Positions 7,316-40,500 of a stretch of 64,000 bases of DNA are shown here, in pieces (within the stretch, counting starts at the first letter, position 1; every line of letters begins with the position of its first letter). A model generated the notes under the pieces. It did no database searches and was not told where the DNA came from. It saw only the letters and a list, made by a program, of their open reading frames with translations. The position numbers and the translations under genes were made by a program. This stretch comes from Liolophura sinensis (Eukaryota > Mollusca > Polyplacophora > Chitonida > Chitonidae). The stretch is from assembly GCF_032854445.1 (NCBI RefSeq), contig NC_088296.1, positions 8,718,706-8,782,705 on the forward strand, read 5' to 3'.

Positions 7316-7515
7316 TCATAAGAGTTTGACAACAGCTGTTACTAGGAAGAGAACAACTACAGAAACTGCACTAGGTCTGCTACCGTAAGACACCGCCCTT
7401 GTCCTGTCTTCCTCCACTGCTAGGATATCACGGACGATGTGGACTACGCCATTGGTCGCTCCCAAATCCATGTGAATGACTTGTGTGCGCTTTCTACCAA
7501 ATACAATCTCCACAT
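7316..7515 (-). CDS. FAS1 gene exon 13 (end of domain 4, GPI signal, stop)
   Basis: The acceptor TTTACAG precedes 7515; the TGA stop is at 7318-7316. Encodes residues 697-762: VEIVFGRKRTQ, the domain 4 H2 motif NGVVHIVRDIL, a hinge DRTRAVSYGSRPS and the hydrophobic tail SVVVLFLVTAVVKLL. The tail ends the protein directly with no cytoplasmic residues, favouring GPI anchoring over a transmembrane segment. Confidence 0.92.
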
Positions 7516-10500
7516 CTGTAAACATAACCAAAAGAAGAAAAATCTATGAATTTAACAGAATTTCAGCAATGAGCTGCTGGCATTTGCAACCTTTGTTTGG
7601 TGACAAGAGTAAAACGATACCGAACGTTCGCAGCATGGCCTTGTATGATTTCTTCCTTCTATCCGGTAATTAATACTTTGAACAGAGTTAATTTACATTT
7701 CTTTACTTCCAAAAATTCTACACGTGCAACTGCTTTCTTAGATGAGGTTTTGAGATCACACACGTATTTCCGTTTTTTACATTATTTAAGCATAAAAAAA
7801 ACTTTAAAAGACCAGTCCTACTGTAATTCATCAGATATGATTTCACAGAAATAAAAAAAAACTATTTTCAAAAATGTTTGTTCGACAAATAGGGCAAACA
7901 TTTTCTCAAGAACCTGATGTGATCCCCACATGCCTTAAATATTGTCCGAAAAGGCCACTGTACATGTATTTTGTCCAAATTTCAATGACTTGTACAGTAA
8001 TAATTATGTAACAGAAAAAAATGACATAGTTTTGAGGGCAAGTGTATCCAGCACTATGAATAGCACCAACTTTGTCTAATCATTTACCGTTCACATTGTA
8101 CTGAACTTACATGCACGGATACCGTATCCATTCTTCTTCAGGACAATTTCCTCGCCGTTATCTGTTCTAAATATGTGGTTACCTTCAGGAAGTTTGTCCA
8201 TGTGGATTGTGCGGTAAGGTATGACATGACGCCGCATGATCTGTAAGAGAGAAGGACAAATCATGAAAAGGTTTATTTATTTCATTACCTGATTGTTGTT
8301 TTAAGCCCTACTCAAAACACATTTCACTTATACAGTCAGCATTATGATGGAGGAAAACCAGGCACAGCCCATGGTAAGCCACGAGGATCCACAGTTTGCT
8401 GTCAGGCCTTCTCACGTAGATCTGGTGAGTAAGCCAGCCAGCATGAGCTGAACTTGAACTTAAACTCAATGCGCCACGCTGACAGACTAATTACTTGGTC
8501 ACACAGGCCCAGATCATGACAAAAAAACCCCCAAAAAACAAAACAAAGTATTGTTTGGTGGGTAAAAATCTACTTTCGGAACCACACAAAAGCTTGAAGC
8601 ATACGTAACATTTAATTGTTATAGAGGCCTCCGTGGCTCAGTTGGTTAGCACGCTAGCACAGCGTAATGACCTATAAGCCTCTCTCACCAATGTGTTAAG
8701 TTTCTCTCCGGCTGTACGTGGAAGGTCTGTCAGGCACCTGCGGATGGTCGTGGGTTTGCCCAGGCTTTGCCCGGTTTCCTCCCACCATAATAAGTGAAAT
8801 ATTCTTGAGTACGGCGTAAAATACCAATCAAATAAATAAATAAATTTAATTGACCCTCAACTCTTGTTTCCTTGCAGTTGCCAACTTCTCAAAGCTATGC
8901 CGGTGGAATCTGGATTTCGAGGTATAAAGGTAGATAACTCATTTTCAGAACGCACCCATCTGTATCTAATTGGATCCTGCATGATCGTCCGGCCAAGGTT
9001 GGTCTCCTCAAAGTACTCCATTGCACTTCCATTGACAACAAACACAGTGAACTCCTGAGGGACATCCTGATAGTCCACGTATGAGTTCCCATAGCGGTTG
9101 TTTTGACCGTAGTTGTTCTGGTTTTGATTGTTGTTGTTCTGGTTTTGGTTGTAATTGTTCTGGTTTTGGTTGTAATTGTTCTGGTTTTGGTTGTAGTTGT
9201 TTTGGTTTTGGTTGTAGGTGTTTTGGTTGTAGCGGCTGGTTGAGGTCCTGTAGTTGTTTTGGTTGTAGTTGTTCTGGTTGTAGTTGTTCTGGTTGTATCG
9301 GTTATTGTAGTAACTACTTGGCACAACACAGGTACGTCCAGGTGAACCTTGTGTCAGTCCACGATCTCTAAGATACTCTCCTAAAGTCAGTCCATTCATC
9401 ACCAGGTAAGTTTTACTGAAAACAAATAACAAAAAACAGTCAGTCCACAATCTCTCAGGTAGGCCTACTCCCTTAAAGTGAGCCGGTAAGTTTTACTAAA
9501 AACAGATTATACAAAACAGGCAGTCCACATTTCACAGGTAGGCCTACTATCCTAAAGTCAGTCCATTCATCACCAGGTAAGTTTTACTGAAAATAAAGAG
9601 TCAATCCACTCTATCTGAGATTTTCAGATAATCTCATGAAGTCAGGAAAAAAGTCCACCCAGTCATCAACAGGTAAGTTTCATGGTCAGTCCACAATCTC
9701 TCAGTTACTTTTCTAAAGTTTGCCCAGTCATCAACAGGTAAGTTTCACTGCCAGTCCATAATCTCTCAATTACTTTTCCAAAGTCTGCCCAGTCATCAAC
9801 AGGTAAGTTTCACTGTCAGTCCATAATCTCTCAGTTACTTTTCTAAAGTCTGCCCAGTCATCAACAGGTAAGTTTCACTGCCAGGCCACAATCTCTCAGT
9901 TACTTTTCTAAAGTCTGCCCAGTCATCAACAGGTAAGTTTCACTGCCAGTCCATAATCTCTCAGTTACTTTTCTAAAGTCTGTCCAGTCATCAACAGGTA
10001 AGTTTCACTGTCAGTCCACAATCTCTCAGTTACTTTTCCAAAGTCTGCCCAGTCATCAACAGGTAAGTTTCACTGTCAGGTCACAATCTCTCAGTTACTC
10101 TTGTAAAGTCCACCCAGTCATCAACAGGTAAGTTTCACTGTCAGTCCATAATCTCTCAGTTACTTTTCTAAAGTCTGCCCAGCCATCAACAGGTAAGTTT
10201 CACTGTCAGTCCACAATCTCTCAGTTACTTTTCTAAAGTCTGCCTAGTCATCAACAGGTAAGTTTCACTGTCAGTCCACAATCTCTCAGTTACTTTTCCA
10301 AAGTCTGCCCAGTCATCAACAGGTAAGTTTCACTGTCAGGCCACAATCTCTCAGTTACTCTTCTAAAGTCCACCCAGTCATCAACAGGTAAGTTTCACTG
10401 TCAGTCCACAATCTCTCAGTTATTTTTCTAGTCTGCCCAGTCATCACTAAGAAAGTTCTACAGAAAACACACTAAAATACAGTCCACAACTTTTAATCCA

Positions 10501-13500
10501 CACAGATAATCTCTCCAGGTTTTGAATTACTTGGGAAGAACAGCAGTTAAATAAATAAATGAATTTAACTATGGAACATAAAGGTGCAAATCGAAAGAAT
10601 GTGACACGTACACTTCTAATTCCAATTTCTACCTAAAATACCATGTTTCCACTGCAATCTTTGGAGCAAATTAAAGAACAATTTATGCACACTTAGAAAT
10701 TTGATTTTGGAGACAATACTAAATTGGTTGGATTGGCCAGATTCAGTTGAGGGCTTCAGAATATGCTTAAATAAACCCCTCGCAAAAAGCGAAAAGATCG
10801 AACGATTCCAGTATGCAAATATGCACTTACTACAGCCAGGCGTCTTCACAGATTGTTGTTGGAATGTCCTTGGGAGGAATGCCAAACACACGATCGATGT
10901 ACTGTACATAACCATTGGTTACTCCAACATCTGGGCGTACAACTCTGGCTCGCACGTACCCTGCCTCCACGTAAGTGTCTGAAAAAACATAAAGTCCAAA
11001 AATAATGTGAGCTTCAAAATGAAAAGCAAAAGGAAATTTTAACTGTGGGCAGAACTACTTAAAAAAAGAAAAGATAATAGATGCTGGCTGGTGGACAGCT
11101 GAGAAAGGCTTGCCTGGCAGCAATGGGTGAGTGAGTGAGTGAGTGAGCGCTTGGGGTACTTAACAATTTTTCAGTCATATGACAACGAAGGAATCCTTAG
11201 TGCATGTAATGTGCCTCCTTATTGCAGGATGGATTTCCAGCGCTCTTTTATCTAGTGCTGCTTCACTGAGATGACTTACCAAAGGCAGGTAAGCCACCCC
11301 GCCCGAGCCATCATACTGATACGGGTCAATCAGTTGTTGCACTAGCTCTTTCATGCTGAACGCCAAGCAAGGAAGTTACAACTTCCTCTTTTAAAGTCTT
11401 AGGTGTGACTAGACCCAGGACTGACGCTGGATCTACCGCTCCCAATGCGGACATTCGACCAACTGTGCTATCGGGGCCGGTTGGCAGCATTGGTCACGCT
11501 TGAATAAATTTGCACATACCATACATTTACCTTACCTTGACAACAGCCAATCAGGATTGATTCTGTATCCCTTTAAGTTATTTATTTTATATTGGTTTTT
11601 CTTTACAAGAAAAGCCATTATCGTATCAGGTACATTTTTGAGCCCATACTTTCCCACAAGTACAGGTATTTCAGAACAATTTGCATGACAGCCCTGACTT
11701 AGTACCACATCACGACAGTTCACCTCATGAAACAAATATTTAAACACACCAATCTCCCTAGTGACATTAAAGTACTGCTACACATGTGTAGCTTACACAA
11801 GATTTCAGACAGTGTACATCCTTCCCCATTATAACATGCCTCAACTACAATTTATTTATTTCACTGTCATTTAACTCAAGAATCACCAATGCTCTCGCTG
11901 TGCGTTCAAATCCAACTAATGTTGGCTTCCTCTCCGGCCGTGCTTGGGAAGTTCTTCCAGCAACATGGGCATGGCTGTGGGTTTCCCCTGGGCTCTGCTC
12001 GGTTTCCTCCCACCATAATGCTGGGTGCCGTCGTATAAGTGAAATATTCTTGAGTACGGCATAAAACACTAATCAAATAAATAAATAAATTTAACTCAAG
12101 AATTCTCCACTTCTTACATGACAGCAGTAAGGATTAAGGGAGAAGGAAACCTGAGAGCCTGGGTAAACTATACCAACCCTTGACAGCTAACTGTTCAGCC
12201 CCATGACTGAAACAGAGCTGGTCAGGGTTGCTTTGATTATAACAAAAAATTGAGCACAACACAGTCATAGTCCCAATCTTTTCCAAGTGAATCAGTTGTT
12301 CCATTACATACTTTTAAAACCTTTCGAGTCTGTATGTTTATCACACTCATTTTTATGACAGCCATTCTCCTACTTTGGCTTCAGAATTCAGTTTTGAAGG
12401 CAATATTTCCATACCATTAAATCTCTGATAGATAGACACACTCTGTCCCTGATACATGGTCCTTCTCGTCTCGCGTCCCTCGTACTGCTTGTTCACATCC
12501 ATCACAACCAGGGCGTTCCCGACCTCTAGAATGTGGTAACGGATAACCTGAAACAACCCAACACATAAAACAAACAGTCAGGTATCACATATTTAATCAG
12601 TTACTTAATCAGGTAACCTGATTATAACCGGTAACAACACAGTTTTCAGTTTCTTAATCAGATAACCTGAAACAACACATACCTAATCAGTTACCCAATC
12701 AGACAACCTGAAACAACTTGCATTTATTCAGTTACTTAATCAGATAACCTGAAACAACTTGCATTTAATCAGTTACTTATTCAGACAACCTGAAACAACT
12801 TGCATTTAATCAGTTACTTAATCAGACAACCTGAAACAACTTGCCTTTAATCAGTTACTTAATCAGACAACCTGAAACAACTTGCCTTTAATCAGTTACT
12901 TAATCAGACAACCTGAAACAGCTTGTCTTTAATCAGTTACTTAATCAGACAACCTGAAACAACTTGCATTTAACCAGTTACTTAATCAAACAACCTGAAA
13001 CAACTTGCCTTTAATCAGTTACTTAATCAGACAACCTGAAACAACTTGCCTTTAATCAGTTACTTAATCAGACAACTTGAAACAACTTGCCTTTAATCAG
13101 TTACTTAATTAGACAACCTGAAACAACTTGCATTTAATCAGTTACTTAATCAGACAACCTGAAACAACTTGCATTTAATCAGTTACTTAATCAAACAACT
13201 TGAAAGAACTCAAATTTAATCAGTTACTTAATCAGATAACCTGATTATAACCCGAAACAACACACATTTCGGTATCTTAATCATATAAGCTAAAACAACA
13301 CATACTTAATCAGATAGTTAATCGAATAACCTGTCATAACAAAGAGTCAGTCACTTAGTTTGTTAAACAATGAATAATTTTATTGATTTATTTTGATTGT
13401 TATTTAAGCCTCAAGAATTCCTGACTTTAATACTTGTATCATCCTGAAATTTCCCACCTGAACAGACACAGTCTGCCTTAGTTTGAACCTTTCACTGATC

Positions 13501-16500: not shown

Positions 16501-19500
16501 CCGGCAGAGCCCAGGGAAATTCACAACCATCTGCAGCTTGATGGCAGATCTTTCCACCATGCTGGCCGGAGAGGAAGCCAGTATGAGCTGGACTTGAACT
16601 CACAGCGACTGCATTAGTGAAAGGCACCTGGGTCAATGTGCCATGTTGGTGTGCTATCCCCCTCAGCCAAGGAGAAGCCAAGTTAAAATCTGTTAGCATA
16701 ATGTAATAGAGTACAATTTAATGACATTACTGTATTACTGTAATGTTATAATGCAATGTACATTCAGTTAGTACAATTTAATTACACAATATAGTTTCTG
16801 TTACTATAATGTAATAACGTAATTTATCCCATAATTTACTGGCAGCCAGCATTATGGTAGGAGGACACCCAGCAAGCCTAAAACAAACCCACGACCATCG
16901 CTGGCAGACCTTCCCAGGTATGGCTGGTACATTAAGAAGAGGATACCATTGTATTGGTAAACCCCAGAGCATTGTAGGTTTTGACCTGAGCTGACACAAC
17001 ATTGAATTTTAAGCAAACTAGGCACAAAAATGATTCACTGCAAGTGTTGGGGCACAACTTATCATAGTTTTTCTACTACATATACATGTATGGCAAATTA
17101 TTCAGGAAGAAGTATACCCCAGGGCACAGCAGGTCTTCGAAAATGTACGCAATGTTGAATTTCAAGCAAGTAGAATAAAAACTGATGGCCCACCTCACAG
17201 TACTGTCTGATTCCACCTGCTGTAGGGCCGAGTTGTACCTGTACCCCAGGATGCTGTCCACAACATGCAGAACCCCATTGGCCACTGTGATGTTCCCAAA
17301 CGTGATCTCTGCATTCACACCCTCTGACATCACATAGACTGTAAAGACATCACATAGATCGTAAAGACATCGCATAGACTATAAAGACATCATATAGACT
17401 GTAAAGATATCACACAGACTATAAAAACATCACAGACATGTAAAGATATCATAACATGGACAATTACCATAGCATTCACACCCTCTGACATCACACAGAC
17501 TGTAAAGAGATCACATAGACTGTAAAGAGATCACATAGATTGTAAAGACATTATTACATGGACGGTTAACATAGCGTTCACGCAATCTGACATCACATAG
17601 ACTGTAAAGACATTACCCAGACTGTAAAGAACTCATAACATGGATGGTTAACACGGTGTTCACACCCTCTGACATTACAAAGACTGTACAGACATCACAC
17701 AGACTATAAAGACATCACAGACTTTAAGACATCACAGACTGTATAGACATCACACAGACTACAAAGACATCACAGAGGGGAAGACATCATAACATGGATG
17801 GTTAACATAGCGTTCATACCCTCTGACATCACATTGTGTGAAGACTGTAAAGAAATCACATGGACTATAAAGACATCACATAGACTGTAAAGACATCGCA
17901 ACATGGTCAGTTAACGTACCGTAATTAATAAAGAATATGACGACATTGGAACAAAATAACAAGGACTATAAATACATTGGGACATCATACCAAGGACTAT
18001 AAAGGTATACAGGCCTAATAATGAGGACTGTGAAGACATGCATGAAAATGTAGGGACATAAAATTGGTGGAAAAGACAGTGGGACAAAATAATAAGAACT
18101 CTAACGACATTGGGACAAAACAAGGACTGCAAAGACATTTCAACATAATATCAAGGATTGTAAAGAAATAGAGACATAATAATGAAGAGTGTAAAGACAA
18201 AGGGGCATAATAATAAGGACTGTTAAGACATAGAGACATAATAATAAAGACAGAGGGTCATAATATCAAGGATTATGAAGAACTGAAGAAACAGAGACAT
18301 AATAATGAAGAGTGTTAAGACAAAGGGACATAATAATGACTGTTAAGAAATGGAGACATAATAATAAAGACATAGGGTCATAATATCAAGGATTATAAAG
18401 AAATGAAGAAATATAGACATAATAGTGAAGACTGTAAAGACATAGAGGCATAATAATAATGATTAAAGGCATAGGGTCATAATATCAAGGATTATAAAGA
18501 AATACAGACATAATAATGAGGACTGTAAAGACATGGTGACATAACAATAAGGACTATTAAGAAATACAGACATAATAATAAAGACTGTAAAGACACTGGG
18601 GCATATCAAGGACTGAAAAGACAATGGAACATAACACCAAGGCCTATAAACGCTGGGACATAATAATAAAGAAAACCAAAGTCACCACGAAATACATCAT
18701 GTCCATGTCTGTAATGAGAGGAATGTGGCAAATATGCAAGTCATATCTCAAGAAGTCCATTAAAAACAGTTGACAAATTCACATAGTGATAGATTTCTAA
18801 ATGTCTACATTTGACAATCTTTGACAAATTGTTGACAATGGCTCCGCTCCCAGTCTATCACTTGGTCACTAGATTTTTACAACATATGGAGATTTTGCCA
18901 TACTAGTTGAAACTGAAATCTATGGGAACCCACCTCTTTCTGGGAAGTTATCTGTCTTAATTTTCCTGAAGGTAATTTTCTCGTTAGGCAGCTCAGTCTG
19001 GAACTCTTGTCTGTGCACCACCCAGGATGTGTGAATCGCCTGTTTGAGGATGTAGTGACGCTTGATGACCTTAAATGGAACAAAAGTAAAAAATTATAAT
19101 ATCCTCTCATTTTAACTGCAAGGCGAAATAATTTATAACACTAATCCAGGAAATGGATTAAAATTAAAACAGAAAAAAAATCCACCCAAAGTTTTCATTT
19201 TGTCTAATCCTGATGTTCTCTTTAATACCTGACTATTTTCCAAAGCTTTTGAATCAAGTAATTATGTCGGAGGCAAGAAATATCATTGAGACTGTCCCCT
19301 TGTCCACGAAAAAAATTTCAGTTTATTTTTACACATCCAACTCTCCAAATTCTGTATTTGTGAAAGATATGGATGTATCTCCCTTGGCAAGAATTTACCT
19401 TCCTTGATGGCAGATATCAGTTCAATTACCCAATGCTGTTAGCATTTACAAGTAACAATGTGAAGGTATTTAAGCAACAAGAGTGATTACTTGTAACTTT

Positions 19501-22500: not shown

Positions 22501-25500
22501 AGGTTGTAAAACTGTATAATGTTCAAGTCATGTGATACATTCAAACTCTGACCTCTAAACCAAATGAAAGCAGAATGATTGTCACTGTCATACAGAGATA
22601 TTAATGTCTAATTATACAGAGCTAAGATCTTTCCATTAAATCAACGAGAAAGGTCAAACTGATCATACTGTCACAACTATCACTGTTTATCGTATGTGTA
22701 AGGATTGCAGAGCAGTGACTTCATATGTCATGGGTCCTCAAGCAACCTGCAGATGGTCATGGGTTTCCCTCGGGGCTCTGCCCTGTTTCCACCCACCATA
22801 ATGCTGGCCACTGTCGTATAAGTGAAATATTCTTGAGCATGGCGTAAAACACCAATTAAATAAATAAAATAAATATCATATTTTTGTGGAGTTGTAAATC
22901 ATTGTGGTCGTAAAAGACATTGTGTAGGGAGTGAGAGCACCACTGCTGTCTTTAAAATCTGAGGTTCTGTCGAGGTTCTGTCGAGGTTCTGGGGGGGTGT
23001 AATTTGTTACTATTTATGCAGTGGCATGAACAGTTAGAAAAAAACCTGACTGAGGTAAACTGACAAGAGATCGGATTTCATTGGTTACGTGTGACCATTT
23101 GCCATCTATCACAATGTCGTCGCTGCTCTGGCTTTACTCTCTATGCTGTACGACTATCACAATGCCGTCGCTGCTCTGGATTTACTCTCTATGCTGTACA
23201 TCTATCACACTGACATCACTGCTCTGGTTTTACTATCTGTGCTGTATGCCTGTCACACTGTCGCCACTACTCTGGCTTTACTCTCGATGCTGTATGACTA
23301 TCACACTGTCGCCACTACTCTGGCTTTACTCTCTATGCTGTACGACTATCACAATGTCGCCACTACTCTGGCTTTACTCTCTATGCTGTATGACTATCAC
23401 AATGTCGCCACTACTCTGGTTTTACTCTCCATGATGTATGTCTGTCACACTGTCGCCACTACTCTGGTTTTACTCTCCATGATGTATGACTATCACACTG
23501 TCGCCACTACTCTGGTTTTACTCTCCACGCTGTATGACTATCACAATGTCGCCACTACTCTGGTTTTACTCTCTATGCTGTATGACTATCACAATGTCAC
23601 CACTACTCTGGTTTTACTCTCTATGCTGTATGACTATCACAATGTCGCCACTACTCTGGTTTTACTCTCTATGCTGTATGACTATCACAATGTCACCACT
23701 ACTCTGGATTTACTCTCTATGCTGTATGACTATCACACCGTCGCCACTACTCTGGTTTTACTCTCTATGCTGTATGACTATCACACTGTCGCCACTACTC
23801 TGGATTTACTCTCTATGCTGTATGACTATCACACTGTCGCCACTACTCTGGTTTTACTCTCTATGCTGTACGCCTGTCACACTGTCGCCACTACTCTGGA
23901 TTTACTCTCTATGCTGTATGACTATCACACCGTCGCCACTACTCTGGTTTTACTCTCTATGCTGTATGGCTACCACACTGTCGCCACTACTCTGGCTTTA
24001 CTCTCCATGATGTATGTCTTTAATTTTTACGAAGTAAACTGTAGAGCATCTTACGTGATTCTGAGTGAGGGCAGATCAGGGTTTTGAAGATAACTGTACA
24101 TGAACTTGTTGCTGACTGGTTCCGGAATGTAATTGATTATATGCAAGATCCCGTTGGAGCAGTGAATATCACCATTAACAATTCGGGCCCCGTTAACATA
24201 ATACTGATATACTCCAGCCTGGCCCTGAAAATATATAAACAGCAAGATAAGATCTAATATCACCAAACACACACTTACTAGAATACTGTTGAGCTGGTCT
24301 AATACTAGCTTCATTTAGCCTGACCAACAGTCTTGGTACAAATTTTAGCTGAATAATTTGTAGAGTGCAGTTGAAAAGAAATTAATGCAATGATCTGATC
24401 AAAAGACAACTACATGTAGGTCATGAACAAAATTGTCATGAAGGTCATGTGTGCTGCTTAATGCAGACTTGGTACTACACCTAGACCAAAAGTCATAAAT
24501 GATACACATTTTGGCTGGATGATTTTTTTTAGAGTGCAGTTGAAATAAAAACATAAATACATGTACAAGTGGGTCCCAAACAAAACTGCCATGAAGGCAC
24601 TTGTCTTGTTTGCATGCAAATTATTTTCATGAGGTACTTACTGAACAATACTTTGATGGATGTTCATAAGGGAGAGATGAACAACTTAGAAGACAAAGAT
24701 GCCTATGTATATATTTATTTATTTGATTGGTGTTTTACGCCGTACTCAAGAATATTTCACTTATACGATGGCGGTCAGAATTATGGTGGGTGGTAACCGG
24801 GAAGAACCTGGGGGAAACCCATGGCCATCTGCAGGTTGCTGACAGACCTTCCCATGTATGGCCGGAGAGGGAGCCAGCATGAGCTGGACTTGAACTCACA
24901 GTGACCGCATTGGTAAGAGACGCCTGGGTCATTACGTTGTGCTAGAGCCCTAACCAACTGGACCACGGAGACCCCACCAATGTATATAACATTTCAAAAA
25001 GAGTACGAGTCAAGATGAAATTTACACAGATTTATGACAATGGTCATTGTTTTCATTATATTTAGGAAATTTTCTACGATACTGTCATGTATTTCACCCA
25101 AAAAGTAGATGTAAAAATGTGCTTTCAGGACCATATAAAGGCCTTGAAATGATACCATTGAGTGAGACAGTGCCTGGGGTTTAAAATCATCCTTAACAAT
25201 TTTTTTAGTCATATGACGACGAAGGAATCCTTAGAGTGCGTGTAATGCGCCTCCTTGTTGCAGGACGGATTTTCAGTGCTCTTTTATCTAGTGCTGCTTC
25301 ACTGAGACGACTTACCGAAGGTAAGTAAGTTGCCCAGCCTGAGCCATTGTACTGATCAGTACAGTACTGGGTCAACCAGTCGTTGCACTATCCCCTTCAT
25401 GCTGAACGCCAAGCAAGGAAAATACAGCTTCCTCTTTTAAAGTCTTAGGTGTGACTCAACCCAGACTCAACTTTAGGTGAAATACACTATGTCCTCAGGC

Positions 25501-28500
25501 TTTAAAATACTTAGATAATGCTAAACAACTGCGAAGAAAAACGTCAATGAGAGCAGAATTGACATGGCATATTTTTTGTTTCTCTCTGTACCCTCTCATC
25601 TTGTTAACCTTTTTCATCTCTTGTATGCACATATAGGCCTACATCATATGTATACCGTTGTAAAAGAAATGTTTCTTTTTGTACAGAGGTCTGCCAGCAA
25701 CCTGTGGATGGTCGTGGGTTTTCCCGGGCTCAGCCAAATTTCCTCACAATTTTATGCTGGGTGCTGTCGTATAAGTGAAATATTCTTGACTATGGTGTAA
25801 AACACCAATGAAACAAATAAATTTTGTGCAGTGTATTTCTCTACACCCCTTATTTCTCCCAGAATGCTTTAAAATATTGGTTGCAGAACCGATTGAAAAG
25901 GTTGACGATTCAAACATGCTGATGGACTTACCCCTACAGATGGCTTGACAGCTATGAACAGCTTCTCCTGGTTGCCACCATGGCTTCTCTGTACAGAGTC
26001 ATCCTGCATGCTGTTTGTCTGGAGCGTTGTGCCAAAAACTGGGCAAAACAAATGACATTAATTTACCCTTTTGTTCACAGTCCGCACAAATTTATTGTTT
26101 TTTGTTCACAGTCCACATTAATTTACAGTTTTGTTCACAATCCACTTTAGTTGACTGTTTTTGTTCACAGTCCGCATTCATTTGCTGTTTTTTTGTTCAC
26201 AGTCCACACTAATTTACTGTTTTCTCCACAATCCACACTAGTTTACTGTTTTTGTTCACAGTCTACATTAATTTAATGTTTTTTGTTCATAGTTCACATT
26301 GCTGTTTTTTATTCTGGTTTCAATTAATGCTCCAAGAATAGATTTATCCAATTATATCCATTCTCTAGCTTGTTCATATTGGATGATCGACCAGAGATTT
26401 CACGTTCACCATGATTTTCATGTTCACTTTGACCATGATCACTTGGACACTGCCAGGTGATTTTATGATCACTTTGGACAGCAAGCTGCAAAGTGCTTTC
26501 CTGATCACCTTGGGCATACTGCAACTGTGTAGACCTTTCCTGATCACTGTAAGCAGCTGTTACACGCCTTATCCCAATCACTTTGGACAACTGTCAAAAG
26601 GTTTGTTTACTTTGGACAACTGTGTAGATCTTTCCTAATTACTTTGGACAGCTGGTAAGCACTTTACCTGGACCACTGTGGACAGCTGTCAAAAGGTTTG
26701 ACAAATCAGTCTGGTCAACTGTCAAAATGTTTGATGAATCAGTGAGGACAATTGTCAAAAGGTTTGATGATCAGTGTGGACAACTGTCAAAAGGTTTGAT
26801 GATCAGTGTGGACAATTATCAAAAGGTTTGATGATCAGTGTGGACAATTGTCAAAAGGTTTCATGATTAGTGTGGACAACTGTAAAAAGGTTTGATGATC
26901 AGTTTGGACAAGTAAGTGGAGCTTTTCTGATCTCTTTGGTCAAATGTCAAGACGACCCATTGTCAATGTTAGACACCAAACTAGATCAAGAGCTTCTGTG
27001 ATCATTTTGGACACTGTCAAATGTCTTCTTGTCACTTTGGAGAACAGTCATTTATGTGATTATGTCATTAGACAACAATCGAAGGCCTTATTAATCACTT
27101 TCTATGCCATTAGGCTGTTTCATGAAGACTTAAGTCAATATCTGAGAGTTTTTGTGATCATTGTAGACAATTCTGGACAACTGCCAGGTGCTGGGAAATT
27201 CATAATCAACTGGACAACTGTAAAGGTCTTTCATGATCACCTTGTATACCACCATCAGCTTCCAATAAAAGTTGCAATCAAAGCACAACTGATTAACCAA
27301 TTTGATGAACAACAACTTATAAACTACATGTAATATGTTACATGATTTGGACTCTAATAAATTTGAATGGAACATTCCTTGCTTCATTCCATCCAAACTG
27401 ACACCATCCATTTGCATCAATCTGTCTTCATTTATAACTGTACATCATTTCTTAAGTTTTTGGATGTCGGTGTTGAATTTTGTTTTGGAAATTAGAAATC
27501 TTCCTGTCAGTGACTGGGAACATCCATTCTGGTGTACAAATATCTCCTTATGATTGCTGGGTCCTAGGGTGTTCACTGTGATGATACAAATACCTCGTTC
27601 ACAAATGTACACCAAATGTGATAAGTGTAGATTAATTTTATGTGCAGTACATGACCATTTAACCCATGATTTCACTTTTACTACAAATACGTCTATATAA
27701 GACACAGGTTCACTGTGATGTCTTATATGTATATACAAGGTTTTATTGTCATAATCCTTTGACAGAATCAAAATGAAAGTTCCCATAAGTTTGCTCTGCA
27801 GGAACCCATCAAGATCTAGGTAAACTCTAGTACCTCAAAGTATGCAGTTATTTCAAGTGAAGGGGTTTAATACGTGGTAAGCATATGTAAAACTAAACAG
27901 CTTTGGGGATTCCCATAAATTTGTTCTTACGGGAAAGAACAAGAATCAGATACCTGGATTCCCATTAAATCATGTAAATCATTAAAATTAAAATTAAATC
28001 ATGTATGCGGTCTTACTTGCTAGAGACCACACGTAGTTGGCAATTTCTGTTCGGAGCATACGTTCAAATCGCAATCGTTTCTCGGCGCTCATCTGCTGGA
28101 ACGCTGTGTTGTTTGGTGCAAAAACAGTGTAACGATTGTTACCCTGGAAGTTAGGCTCCAGCTGGGCACGTGTCAGCCATGATCTGTACTGTGAACAGAA
28201 AATGAAACACAAACATTCAGAAATAATCCTGACACTAATGTGAATTGAAAATGAAAATTCACAAATTGTTCTTTCATGTACTGTGAAAAGAAATTGAAAA
28301 TAAAAAACGAATTTTATTCACAAGTTATTCTGCCATAAATTGTCAACAGAATTTGAAAAAGGAAAGTCACAAACAGTCCTGAATGAAAACAGAAAAAATA
28401 AAACTTTGAAATTCCAATGGATGACTTGATGACTTTATTTACTTGATTGGTGTTTCATGCTGTACTCAAGAATATTTCACTTTTACAGTGCCGCCCAGCA

Positions 28501-34500: not shown

Positions 34501-37500
34501 GTTAGAAACTTGTCTGTCATAACAGGATATCACAAACTGATATCAACAGCCACATTGTTGCTGTTCATTGGTGTGTAAACTAAACCGGGGCGGCAACATT
34601 TTTAATGCATGTGGTAATATGATGCAGAATGTGGCAAATGTAAATCATTGTGTCATTAGATGTATGTGTATGGTGATTCAGCTAGCCATCAATGCATTAC
34701 AGTTCATAATCATAGGGATATACTGTCTGAGGGCCATACCTACAGTTCATAATCAAGGGGATATACTGTCTGAGGGCCATACCTACAGTTCATAATCATG
34801 GGGATATACTGTCTGAGGGCCATACCTACAGTTCATAATCATGGGGATATACGGTCTGAGGACCATACCTACAGTTCATAACCATGGGGATATACTGCCT
34901 GAGGACCATACCTACAGTTCATAAACATGGGGATATACTGTCTGAGGGCCATACCTACAGTTCATAATCATGGGGATATACTGTCTGAGGGCAATACCTA
35001 CAGTTCATAATCATGGGGATGTACTGTCTGAGGGCCATACCTACAGTTCATAATCATGGGGATTTATTGTCTGAGGGCCATACCTACAGTTCATAATCAT
35101 GGGGATATACTGTCTGAGGGCAATACCTACAGTTCATAATCATGGGGATATACTGTCTGAGGGCCATACCTAGAAAAACATTAAAAGTTCTGACCTCAAA
35201 CTTAAATTGTGAGATCATGACTGTGCAAAAAATATTCCAATAATGCAACTCAAAATGATACTTTCTAAAAGGTTTAGTCGATAAATGAAGGAAATTTGAA
35301 TGAAAACATTTTACTGGTAAATCATCACATTCCTGTTTAATCTAGTTGTTAGTATTACTACAGTTTGTTTAGTTTGGGCAGACAGCAGTTTGGGAGCCCA
35401 AGCATTTTCCAGAACTGAAGTGACTCTAGGTATGGCGTTGACTGTCTTTATGAAAAACATATGGTGCACCAGAATAAAAATATGCATAGTTTAAAAGTTA
35501 TTGGTGTTCTCACTCAATACAGTTATTATTTCTTTTTTCAGTTTTTTTGTTTAGTCAGTAGTATCAGGGACAACCAAGCTGTATAAACTGCAAGGTTCTC
35601 AGTAATGAATTAATTGCCTATTGATACATTGCACAAGGACTTTGGCCAAACATTACGATATTGGTACAAAAAGCAATCTATTTATTTAACCATAAGAATT
35701 ACTATTCACCAAGGAACCTGCTGACATGACAAACAGTTAAAACAAGGACACCTCCCCAAGGTTGGGTTTTTACATGTACAGGGCTGGGTTTTACATACCC
35801 ACGGTTGGGTTTTTACATGTACAGGGCTGGGTTTTACATACCCAAGATTGGGTTTTTACATGTACAGGGCTGGGTTTTACATACCCAAGGTTGGGTTTTT
35901 ACATGTACAGGGCTGGGTTTTACATACCCAAGATTGGGTTTTTACATGTACAGGGCTGGGTTTTACATACCCAAGGTTGGGTTTTTACATGTACAGGGCT
36001 GGGTTTTACATACCCACGGTTGGGTTTTTACATGTACAGGGCTGGGTTTTACATACCCAAGATTGGGTTTTTACATGTACAGGGCTGGGTTTTACATACC
36101 CAAGGTTGGGTTTTTACATGTACAGGGCTGGGTTTTACATACCCACGGTTGGGTTTTTACATGTACAGGGCTGGGTTTTACATACCCAAGATTGGGTTTT
36201 TACATGTACAGGGCTGGGTTTTACATACCCACGGTTGGGTTTTTACATGTACAGGGCTGGGTTTTACATACCCAAGATTGGGTTTTTACATGTACAGGGC
36301 TGGGTTTTACATACCCAAGGTTGGGTTTTTACATGTACAGGGCTGGGTTTTACATACCCACGGTTGGGTTTTAACCTGGCCAAGGCTGGGTTTTTACATG
36401 CACAAGGTTGGGTTTTCACATGCACAAGGTTGGGTTTTTACATACCCAAGGCTGGGCTTTCACATGCACAAGGTTGGGTTTTTACATGCACAAGGTTGGG
36501 TTTTAACCTGGCCAAGGCTGGGTTTTCACATGCACAAGGTTGGGTTTTCACATGCACAAGGTTGGGTTTTTACATGCACAAGGTTGGGTTTTTACATGCA
36601 CAAGGTTGGGTTTTAACCTGGCCAAGGCTGGGTTTTTACATGCACAAGGTTGGGTTTTTACATGCACAAGGTTGGGTTTTAACCTGGCCAAGGTTGGGTT
36701 TTTACATGCACAAGGTTGAGTTTTTACATGCACAAGGTTGGGTTTTAACCTGGCCAAGGTTGGGTTTTTACATGCACAAGGTTGGGTTTTAACCTGGCCA
36801 AGGCTGGGTTTTCACATGCACAAGGTTGGGTTTTTACATGCACAAGGCTGGGTTTTCACATGCACAAAGTTGGGTTTTTACATGCACAAGGTTGGGTTTT
36901 AACCTGGCCAAGGCTGGGTTTTTACATGCACAAGGTTGGGTTTTCACATGCACAAGGCTGGGTTTTTACATGCACAAGGCTGGGTTTTTACATGCACAAG
37001 GTTGGGTTTTCACATGCACAAGGTTGGGTTTTTACATGCACAAGGTTGCGTTTTTACATGCACAAGGTTGAGTTTTAACCTGGCCAAGGCTGGGTTTTTA
37101 CATGCACAACGCTGGGTTTTCACATTCACAAGGTAGGGTTTTCACATGCACAAGGTTAGGTTTTTACATGCACAAGGTTGAGTTTTTACATGCACAAGGT
37201 TGGATTTTCACATGCACAAGGTTGAGTTTTAACATGCACAAGGTTGAGTTTTTACATGCACAAGGTTGAGTTTTTACATGTACAAGGTTGGGTTTTTACA
37301 TGCACAAGGTTGAGTTTTTACATGCACAAGGTTGGGTTTTAACCTGGCCAAGGCTGGGTTTTCACATGCACAAGGTTCGGTTTTTACATGCACAAGGTTG
37401 GGTTTTAATTTGGCCAAGGCTGGATTTTCACATGCACAAGGTTGGGTTTTTACATACCAAAGGCTGGGTTTTTACATGCACAAGATTGTGGTTTTACATG

Positions 37501-40500
37501 CACAAGGCTGGGTTTTTAGATGCACAAGGTTGGGTTTTTACATGCACAACGTTGGGTTTTCACATGCACAAGGTTCGGTTTTTACATACCCTAGGCTGGG
37601 TTTTTACATGCACAAGGTTGGGTTTTTACATGCACAACGTTGGGTTTTCACATGCACAAGGTTCGGTTTTTACATGCACAATGTTGGGTTTTAGTCTGTA
37701 CTGCTGCCCTGTAATTGTCCTGTCAAGTGGAAAGGAGCTATTAACCTGCCCAAGGTTGGGTTTTAACCAGCCCAAGATTGCATTATAACCAGCCCAAGGT
37801 TGGGTTTTAACACACCCAAAGTTGGGTTTTTATATGCCCAAGGTTGGATTTTTACATGCTCAAGGTTAGATTTTACATGCGTTCTTGCGTTTTGGGGTTT
37901 TAGTCTGTACTGCTGCCCTGTAATTTAGCCTACACTGCTGCCCTGCAATTGACCTCGAAAATGGAAAGGAGCTGACCATGGTAAAGTGGTAATTAGGTGT
38001 TTGCCTTCCAGTGAGAATAACACTCACATAATCAACATGATCTATAAGGTGGACATTGATCAGTGGATGTGAAAAAAAATCATTTTTCAATGATCAATTT
38101 CTCTAATTTTAACACATATCATTGAATGACCTTGATCAAAGGGTATTTTTTCAATTAAAATACTTACATGCCCTAATGTTTCAACCTTTTCCAAACCACC
38201 TCTGTGACAAATATTTTGAAACAGTCTGAGAGAACTATGGGGTGTAGAGATATAATTAGTTTTAACAGGGATATATCTCAGATTTTATGCAGCTTCGTGC
38301 CTGTTTACCGATGTATATGAATCATTTCAGCGTCATTTCCATAATAATTGTATGCTTAAATTCCAATGAACAAAGTGCATCAGTGGTTGAAAGGGTTGAA
38401 GATTTACAGTATATACTTCTCTCCATAACTGTCTACATAAAACGACTCATTTGGCAAAAGCATTGGTACATGTATATCTATGTATTTACAGTAAATTTAT
38501 AGCCAAACATTTATTTATTTGTTTGATTGGCGTTTTACGCCGTACTCAAAAATAATTCACTTATATGACGGCGGAAAGTGTTATGCTGGACGGAAATTGG
38601 GTAGAGCCCAGGGGAAACCCGCGCAGGTTGCTGGCCGACCTTCCCACTTACAGCCGGAGAGGAAGCCAGCATGAGCTGGACTTGAACTCACAGCGACCGC
38701 ATTGGTGAGAGGTTTCTGGGTCATTACACTGTGCTAGTGCGCTAACTATCTGAGCCACAGAGGCCCCTATAGCCATATATGCTAGGACAATCAGGTTCAA
38801 ATCCAGTGGAAGCAAATAAACAAAAAACGCATACAAATACAACAACTAGCTAATTCTCCTTCTGACCTTGCATCTCTTTGTGTACATATATATTTATGGC
38901 CTCAGGATTATTCGGCCTGCATATGTCTCAGGCCAGCCGACATCAGTTATAAAGAACTACACCTATATTTATGCCATCTCTATCTGCTATAAGTCATCAG
39001 CACAACAAAGCCTCTGTTATTTTACACAGGTAAATGTATACAGGTGTGTGTCTGTGTACAGCGTGCAGATGTCTAAAAACGTAATGTGAAAAAATTGTGG
39101 ACCATAATTAATACAGTGACAGTGCACAAGTATTACTGTGTCTACATGGATCACATTAATACTGCATGGAATTCTGTTTACTGGGCACCACCTGTTCTTA
39201 CAAGCTATGTCAGTGCATACATTACAGTAATTGATGGAGACAAGTTAATCTTACTTCATATCCCTATATAGACACTATACCCTGAATGACCCTAAATTTC
39301 GTCCATGACTAACTTGCCCATTTTTCCTGATTTTGAGAGTTCCATTGATTTTAGGACGGTGTTTTGAGGTATGCTTGAAACATGGGATGATGTTCCAATA
39401 GAAAATTGTAACCTTCAGCATCCAAAATAATATTTTGTGACATTTATTTGCCTCTAAAAATGCACTTTTATGGGTGACATTTTATGTTATGTAGAGTATG
39501 TCTGGAATGAATATTATATTTATTTATTTATTTATTCATTTATTTATCTATTTTGATTGGCGTTTGATCGTACTCAAGAAAATCTGACTTATACGACGGT
39601 GGCCAGCATCAAGGTGGGAGGAAACCGGTCAGAGCACAGGGGAAACTCACGACCATCCACAGGTTGCTGGCAGACCTTCCCACGTACAGCCGGAGCGGAA
39701 GTCAGGAATGAATATTATAACAATATAATCTGTATTGGCTCCAGGTATTGGGACCAACATATGGTTGGTCCCTAGGCATCAATTCTGGCTTTCATTCTGC
39801 TTTTCATTTCCTTAACATTCATTTCCTTAACATTTCTTACTGTTCCTTATCCACCAAGTACACACTACCCATTCCAGAGTATCATGATAAAAGGAGTCTG
39901 TCTAGACCCATCACTCTCAACTTAAAAATAACATTAACACATTTTTCTTTTTTATTCCATTACCTATGTGATCTCTTAAAATCACAAATATCAACAATGT
40001 GTGTGTCATTCAGATAAATTTTAATTTATAAATAATTTATAAATAATTAGTCCATCATGCTTTCAGATGTATTTGTAGTATGCTTTCTGTCAATAAGTCT
40101 ATGTAATGTCTCTATGTGACTAAGCAGTGTTATTTTGTAATTAAAATATGTTTATAAAAAGTGTAAATATAGAAATGTAAACCTGCTTATAAACACCAAT
40201 GTAAATACACAAAAAACAGCACCATTGTCTTTCACTAAAATCACAAACAGGTTTTGAAGACATGGGAAAAGAAGTTTTTGTCCACATAATTATTTTTTTT
40301 TAACTTGTAACAGTTTGTTAACCTGTAGGTTCATCAGTGAGAAAAACTTAATAGTGTTATCATATTTATAATGTTTATTTACCTGTACCTAATTGGTGTT
40401 TTATGCCATACTCAAGAATATTTCACTTAAACAACAGTGGTTAGCATCATCAGATCATCGTGAGGGGGAAAGTAGGCAGAGCCCAGGTGAAACCCAAGGC

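Follow-up and report, generated by a model that had tools for sequence, protein, structure and literature searches.

An intron in which the boundary with the following exon is repeated many times in tandem raises the question of how the copies arose, and whether any of them could serve as splice sites or as coding sequence. We considered this question for a FAS1 (fasciclin) gene on the minus strand of the window, i.e. the whole stretch of 64,000 nucleotides analysed here, and in particular for its exon 11. The array in front of this exon is very probably a so-called mirage, a minisatellite that has grown by tandem duplication of a segment reaching from the 3′ splice site into the beginning of the exon, and it adds to a known but little-known kind of structure a case with clear anatomy.

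The exons of the gene were joined by hand, without transcripts and on the assumption of correct splicing, and the resulting model matched the Pfam family Fasciclin (PF02469) in two stretches with an E value of 1.4e-22 and 80.7 bits, the cut-off being 22; from exon 10 to the end, the model scored 24.8 bits. The hand-joined model also resembled by sequence the solved chains of periostin, TGFBI and fasciclin I. Exon 11 (8880..9415, minus strand; 9415 is its first base and 8880 is approximate) is open throughout in one minus frame, and its join to exon 10978-10831 is in phase 2 and free of stops. The matches to PF02469 lay both before and after the copied edge of exon 11; neither the copied edge itself nor exons 10 and 11 alone gave a Pfam match, and in the last FAS1 domain Pfam covered the second half only, downstream of exon 11. 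Stop-free joins with a phase-2 intron were obtained at 24055/20220, 17194/15666 and 10831/9415, and in an alignment of the three gene segments these junctions fell within about three residues of one another; at 17194/15666, the Pfam Fasciclin match begins right at the junction (residue 47). The exon-11 peptide aligned loosely with its paralogues. An exon on the plus strand, to which an AG-like site before 8879 and the perfect donor sequences in the array could point, was rejected, because all three plus frames stop within 8860-9420 and the open FAS1 frame is minus.

Exon 11 contains an in-frame minisatellite of its own (9109-9297), which codes for an Asn/Gln-rich run with NQNQNNY-type repeats. 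By eye, no GT site at the 3′ end of the exon (8857-8890) was convincing as a donor, and the frame reaches a stop at about 8857. The next FAS1 exon lies near 8240. Judged by eye, the last exon (7319-7515) codes at its end for a hydrophobic tail of the kind seen in GPI-anchored proteins. Between about 8630 and 8840 lies a repeat element that looks similar to one from molluscs.

The array spans about 9418-10460, upstream of exon 11 in the gene, with a degraded remnant that could be followed by eye to about 10530. It comprises 15 intronic tandem copies, whose minus-strand starts run from 10457 down to 9492, the exon itself being additional; the copies carry the acceptor end and the first 57-60 bp or so of the exon, close to the roughly 15 copies and 55 bp of coding sequence proposed in a sequence-only reading of this DNA. 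The 65-bp core consensus was identical to the exon-11 edge at 52 of 62 positions (local score 79), and the segment of origin can be delimited as 9356..9425 on the minus strand. In 2000 dinucleotide shuffles of the edge the maximum score was 34, and among 12,520 other 70-mers, taken from the two strands of the window in steps of 10, the top score against the same consensus was 29; the identity thus lies well above chance, and the proposal that the minisatellite was built from the 5′ edge of exon 11 holds. When the array detected by TRF was masked, an nhmmer search of the window with the TRF unit gave a match at 9338-9460 (E = 1.6e-13). The copy at 9550-9593 is identical to the exon edge over an unbroken run of 44 bases, including the acceptor and 7 bases on the intron side, which bears out the match of about 45 bp noticed earlier near 9541-9595. 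Searching the assembly (609,464,459 bases in 632 contigs) for the DNA of 9361-9600 returned at least three matches, repeat counts of this search being lower bounds, and all of them were at this locus; a dispersed satellite as the origin of the array was therefore not supported.

Two types of unit make up the array, all on the minus strand. Adjoining the exon are three long units of 80, 91 and 96 bp (9413..9679), in which the inner acceptors 9495 and 9586 retain a pyrimidine tract. These are followed by a core of eleven full 65-bp units lacking the tract (9680..10394), as delimited by the TRF period of 65, by pairwise identity and by splice context. The outermost part (10395..10530) is formed by a degraded unit at 10395-10457, assigned from its sequence and from the acceptor context of 10457, and by what is left of one more unit, recognised by eye, in which a T-rich tract is present. 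In the long unit at 9413-9492, a T-rich tract of 21 nt precedes the AG, and the alignment showed that it is precisely this tract that is missing from the 65-bp consensus. The core units were 85-100% identical to one another (mean 93%), and all eleven matched the exon at 47-50 of 60 positions. A gradual decay of the copies with distance, as suggested earlier, was thus not found: all full core units have diverged from the exon to an equal extent, and the units nearest to it are of the other, longer type. A tree grouped exon 11 with the two nearest long units (93/92), with no fork starred and 10 of 12 inner branches open, so that the separation of the exon and its nearest units from the rest is weakly supported by the tree.

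Regarding splice signals, the true acceptor of exon 11 was the richest in pyrimidines (13/16), and three of the 15 copies kept a pyrimidine tract, namely those with acceptors at 9495 (11/16), 9586 (11/16) and 10457 (12/16); the other 12 had 5-6 pyrimidines out of 16. The AG was kept at the expected place in 14 copies and was absent from the copy at 9681. Before the true acceptor the AG-free run measured 34 bases; among the copies it was 46 bases for 9495, 20 for 9586, 12 for 10457 and 13-14 for the core. Judged by these signals, three copies are plausible acceptors, one of which is not clearly weaker than the true site, and a few real decoy acceptors are possible, for example 9495 with its long AG-free run; the suggestion that the copies are decoy splice sites is accordingly borne out in part. 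Read in the phase of the exon, 14 of the 15 copies meet a stop no later than codon 16. In 11 of these the stop stands at codon 14, which is TAT in the exon itself; for the inner acceptors 9495 and 9586 the first in-phase stops are at codons 10 and 13, respectively, and the outermost degraded copy alone stays open over the 25 codons read. Copies acting as coding units were rejected on account of these stops, and the stops, like the period of 65 bp, which is not divisible by three, speak against the idea that the array supplies raw material for new exon segments. Most copies thus appear, from their sequence, to be poor splice sites and poor exon material.

Boundaries of the same gene outside its last two exons were compared with their flanking introns at eight acceptors, that of exon 11 included, and at seven donors, all belonging to other exons. 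A second array of the same design was found at 17339..17900 on the minus strand, where units of 20 bp and more combine a TTTACAG-like acceptor with as many as 28 bases of the adjoining exon, whose first base is 17338. Its score against the edge of this exon was 94, compared with a maximum of 29 in 480 shuffles, and was 51 with the exon bases alone; nhmmer matched the exon edge at 17305-17377 (E = 2e-11), and every other acceptor tested scored 19 or less with this array. Its units keep tract-like sites with 10-12 of 16 pyrimidines, the true site having 11. A stretch of about 31-bp units with TTTA(C/T)AG at 17901..18716 (minus strand, detected by TRF) is probably a diverged continuation, linked by nhmmer to 17839-18162, and its score of 30 against the exon edge was below the shuffle maximum of 37. 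Altogether, 18 TTTA(C/T)AG sites and four copies of the longer exon edge, with up to 4 substitutions, were seen over the roughly 1.4 kb of intron at 17339-18716.

Two further acceptors gave what look like weak cases. A 41-bp array at 12560..13360 on the minus strand, with TTGTTTCAG/GTT, resembles the acceptor at 12547, where the adjoining exon begins, over 18 of 19 bases, 6 of them exonic, and scored 33 against shuffle maxima of 29 and 28; the exon bases alone gave no signal (score 12), and nhmmer found no match on the exon. For the exon at 28188, one upstream match scored 36 (shuffle maximum 27) and included four exonic bases. The acceptors 24224, 15666 and 10978 remained below their own shuffle maxima, and 20220 reached 26 against 25 with intron sequence only. 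The eight acceptors therefore comprise two strong cases, two weak ones and four at or about shuffle level, and none of the seven donors tested (0/7) exceeded its shuffles. When eight array stretches were scored against all eight acceptors, each of the two strong arrays gave a high score with its own exon's acceptor (for the exon-11 array, 76 with the core and 96 with the whole) and no more than 21 with any of the others, showing that each strong array matches its adjacent exon and no other tested one.

The array stretches 23106-24016, 26055-26300 and 26440-27000 did not exceed the shuffle maximum with any of the eight acceptors. The stretch at 23106-24016 is a 48-bp array of 19 copies, to which a 48-bp array on another contig is related over a 43-base alignment; the two form a dispersed minisatellite family, unlike the exon-derived arrays. 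A 22-bp array of about 89 copies was observed at 35757-37692. In a 200-kb sample of another contig, 33 arrays were detected by thresholds of our own and no recognisable boundary case was among them, exons not being locatable there, so that the sample says nothing on frequency; none of the 16 open frames beside its arrays looked like a conserved exon when the translations were read by eye.

Structures of this kind have been named mirages in lancelet genes, where, in the available portions of the two reports, they are described as minisatellite-like tandem duplications of an intron-exon boundary (PMC3087553, PMC3902484). The globin genes BflGb6 and BflGb9 carry mirages whose inner units are homogenised, with the boundary units excluded from homogenisation (PMC3087553). 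The exon-11 array is alike in that its tandem units span the boundary, with sequence from the intron and from the exon next to it, and in that the inner units are homogenised and the boundary units divergent. Splice signals are present in many of its units, though not in all (AG in 14/15, tract in 3/15). It differs from BflGb6, which is described as having units of 150-160 bp in 6 and 3 copies in two haplotypes (PMC3087553), by its 65-bp core units, its 15 copies and the absence of the tract from most of them. Tandem repeats over splice sites are likewise described for lancelet Adh3 (10-72 bp) and PGBD5 (60 and 108 bp) (PMC3087553, PMC3902484), the PGBD5 and troponin C (TnC) cases having been added by PMC3902484; for the Adh and TnC repeats, these portions report no aberrant mRNA (PMC3087553, PMC3902484). 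Whereas the globin and PGBD5 mirages, as described there, cover 5′ and 3′ boundaries, the FAS1 gene showed copies of acceptors only. Similar in part is the gain of introns through duplicated AG/GT proto-splice sites (Rogers, cited in PMC3087553), in that coding DNA is duplicated in tandem together with a splice signal; here, however, there is no sign of a new intron, since by the hand-made joins three junctions have a phase-2 intron at roughly the same place in the domain, suggesting that the position is old and that the intron only grew.

The features of the exon-11 locus would fit the following course of events. A tandem duplication within an exon alters the protein. If a duplication spans the acceptor, on the other hand, the mRNA would stay the same provided that splicing uses the copy adjoining the exon body, and the duplicated coding bases would end silently in the intron; such duplications leave the protein unchanged and can therefore persist and grow. 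Unequal exchange or slippage would then multiply the units. The first units were probably long, consisting of the exon edge and the pyrimidine tract, and one of them may have lost the 21-nt tract, giving a 65-bp form with a poor splice site whose spread would have produced the homogenised core. A form without the tract would compete least with the true acceptor, as judged from this one array, and perhaps the tractless units multiplied because they no longer competed with it. Loss of the tract would not be general, since the units at exon 17338 keep their TTTACAG-like sites. We infer that exon 11 is the most likely source of the copies, that splicing uses the acceptor at 9415 alone and that the array is neutral.

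The opposite direction, in which the exon edge would have been recruited from a minisatellite already present in the intron, could account for the edge having the form of the last unit of the array, and would agree with the loose alignment of the exon-11 peptide with its paralogues and the absence of a Pfam match. The position of the phase-2 intron, about the same as at two other junctions of the gene, and the stops that 14 of the 15 copies carry in the phase of the exon speak against it. Because the frame of the exon is open and because of the position and phase of its junction, the exon would be older than the array, and we consider recruitment very unlikely. Tandem arrays generally assemble badly, so that copies added or collapsed during assembly could be invoked as well, and the copy number of the exon-11 array may be off from its true value. 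An array made by such an error is hardly credible, given that the units differ from one another and fall into two types and that a second array of other sequence repeats the same design.

A regulatory role was also weighed, in which splicing to 9495 or 9586 would bring in an early stop and destruction of the transcript, and the array would tune expression in the manner of a poison exon. The tracts of these two acceptors, the AG-free run at 9495, longer than that of the true site, and the stops at codons 10 and 13 would suit such a role, but the true acceptor retains the richest tract, and the lancelet Adh3 and globin mirages are reported, in the available portion of the source, to occur without interference in regular splicing (PMC3087553). 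Regulation by the array thus seems unlikely to us, and growth of a mirage by duplication of the exon-11 boundary is the reading that we prefer.

On this preferred reading, the locus is a clear example of coding DNA leaking into introns, with the exon edge, tract-bearing units and tractless units side by side, and with the recurrence of the pattern at exon 17338 this one gene has two strong cases. Boundary-derived minisatellites would be more widespread than the available portions of PMC3087553 and PMC3902484 report if the species is not a lancelet. Somewhat speculatively, acceptors might repeatedly become minisatellites in a genome possibly far from lancelets, and mirages might arise generally wherever tandem duplications pass through the filter of splicing, rather than being a peculiarity of lancelets. 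The locus also provides a natural test of how the spliceosome chooses among several near-identical acceptors.

Apart from the acceptors, the window has 17 perfect CAGGTAAGT donor sequences on its two strands taken together, and 14 of them lie in the exon edge and the array (9403-10393), on the plus strand and thus opposite to the gene. The sense RNA of the array accordingly repeats a stretch that we take to be like the 5′ end of U1 RNA, and, as a side possibility, this repeated stretch could mask donor sites.
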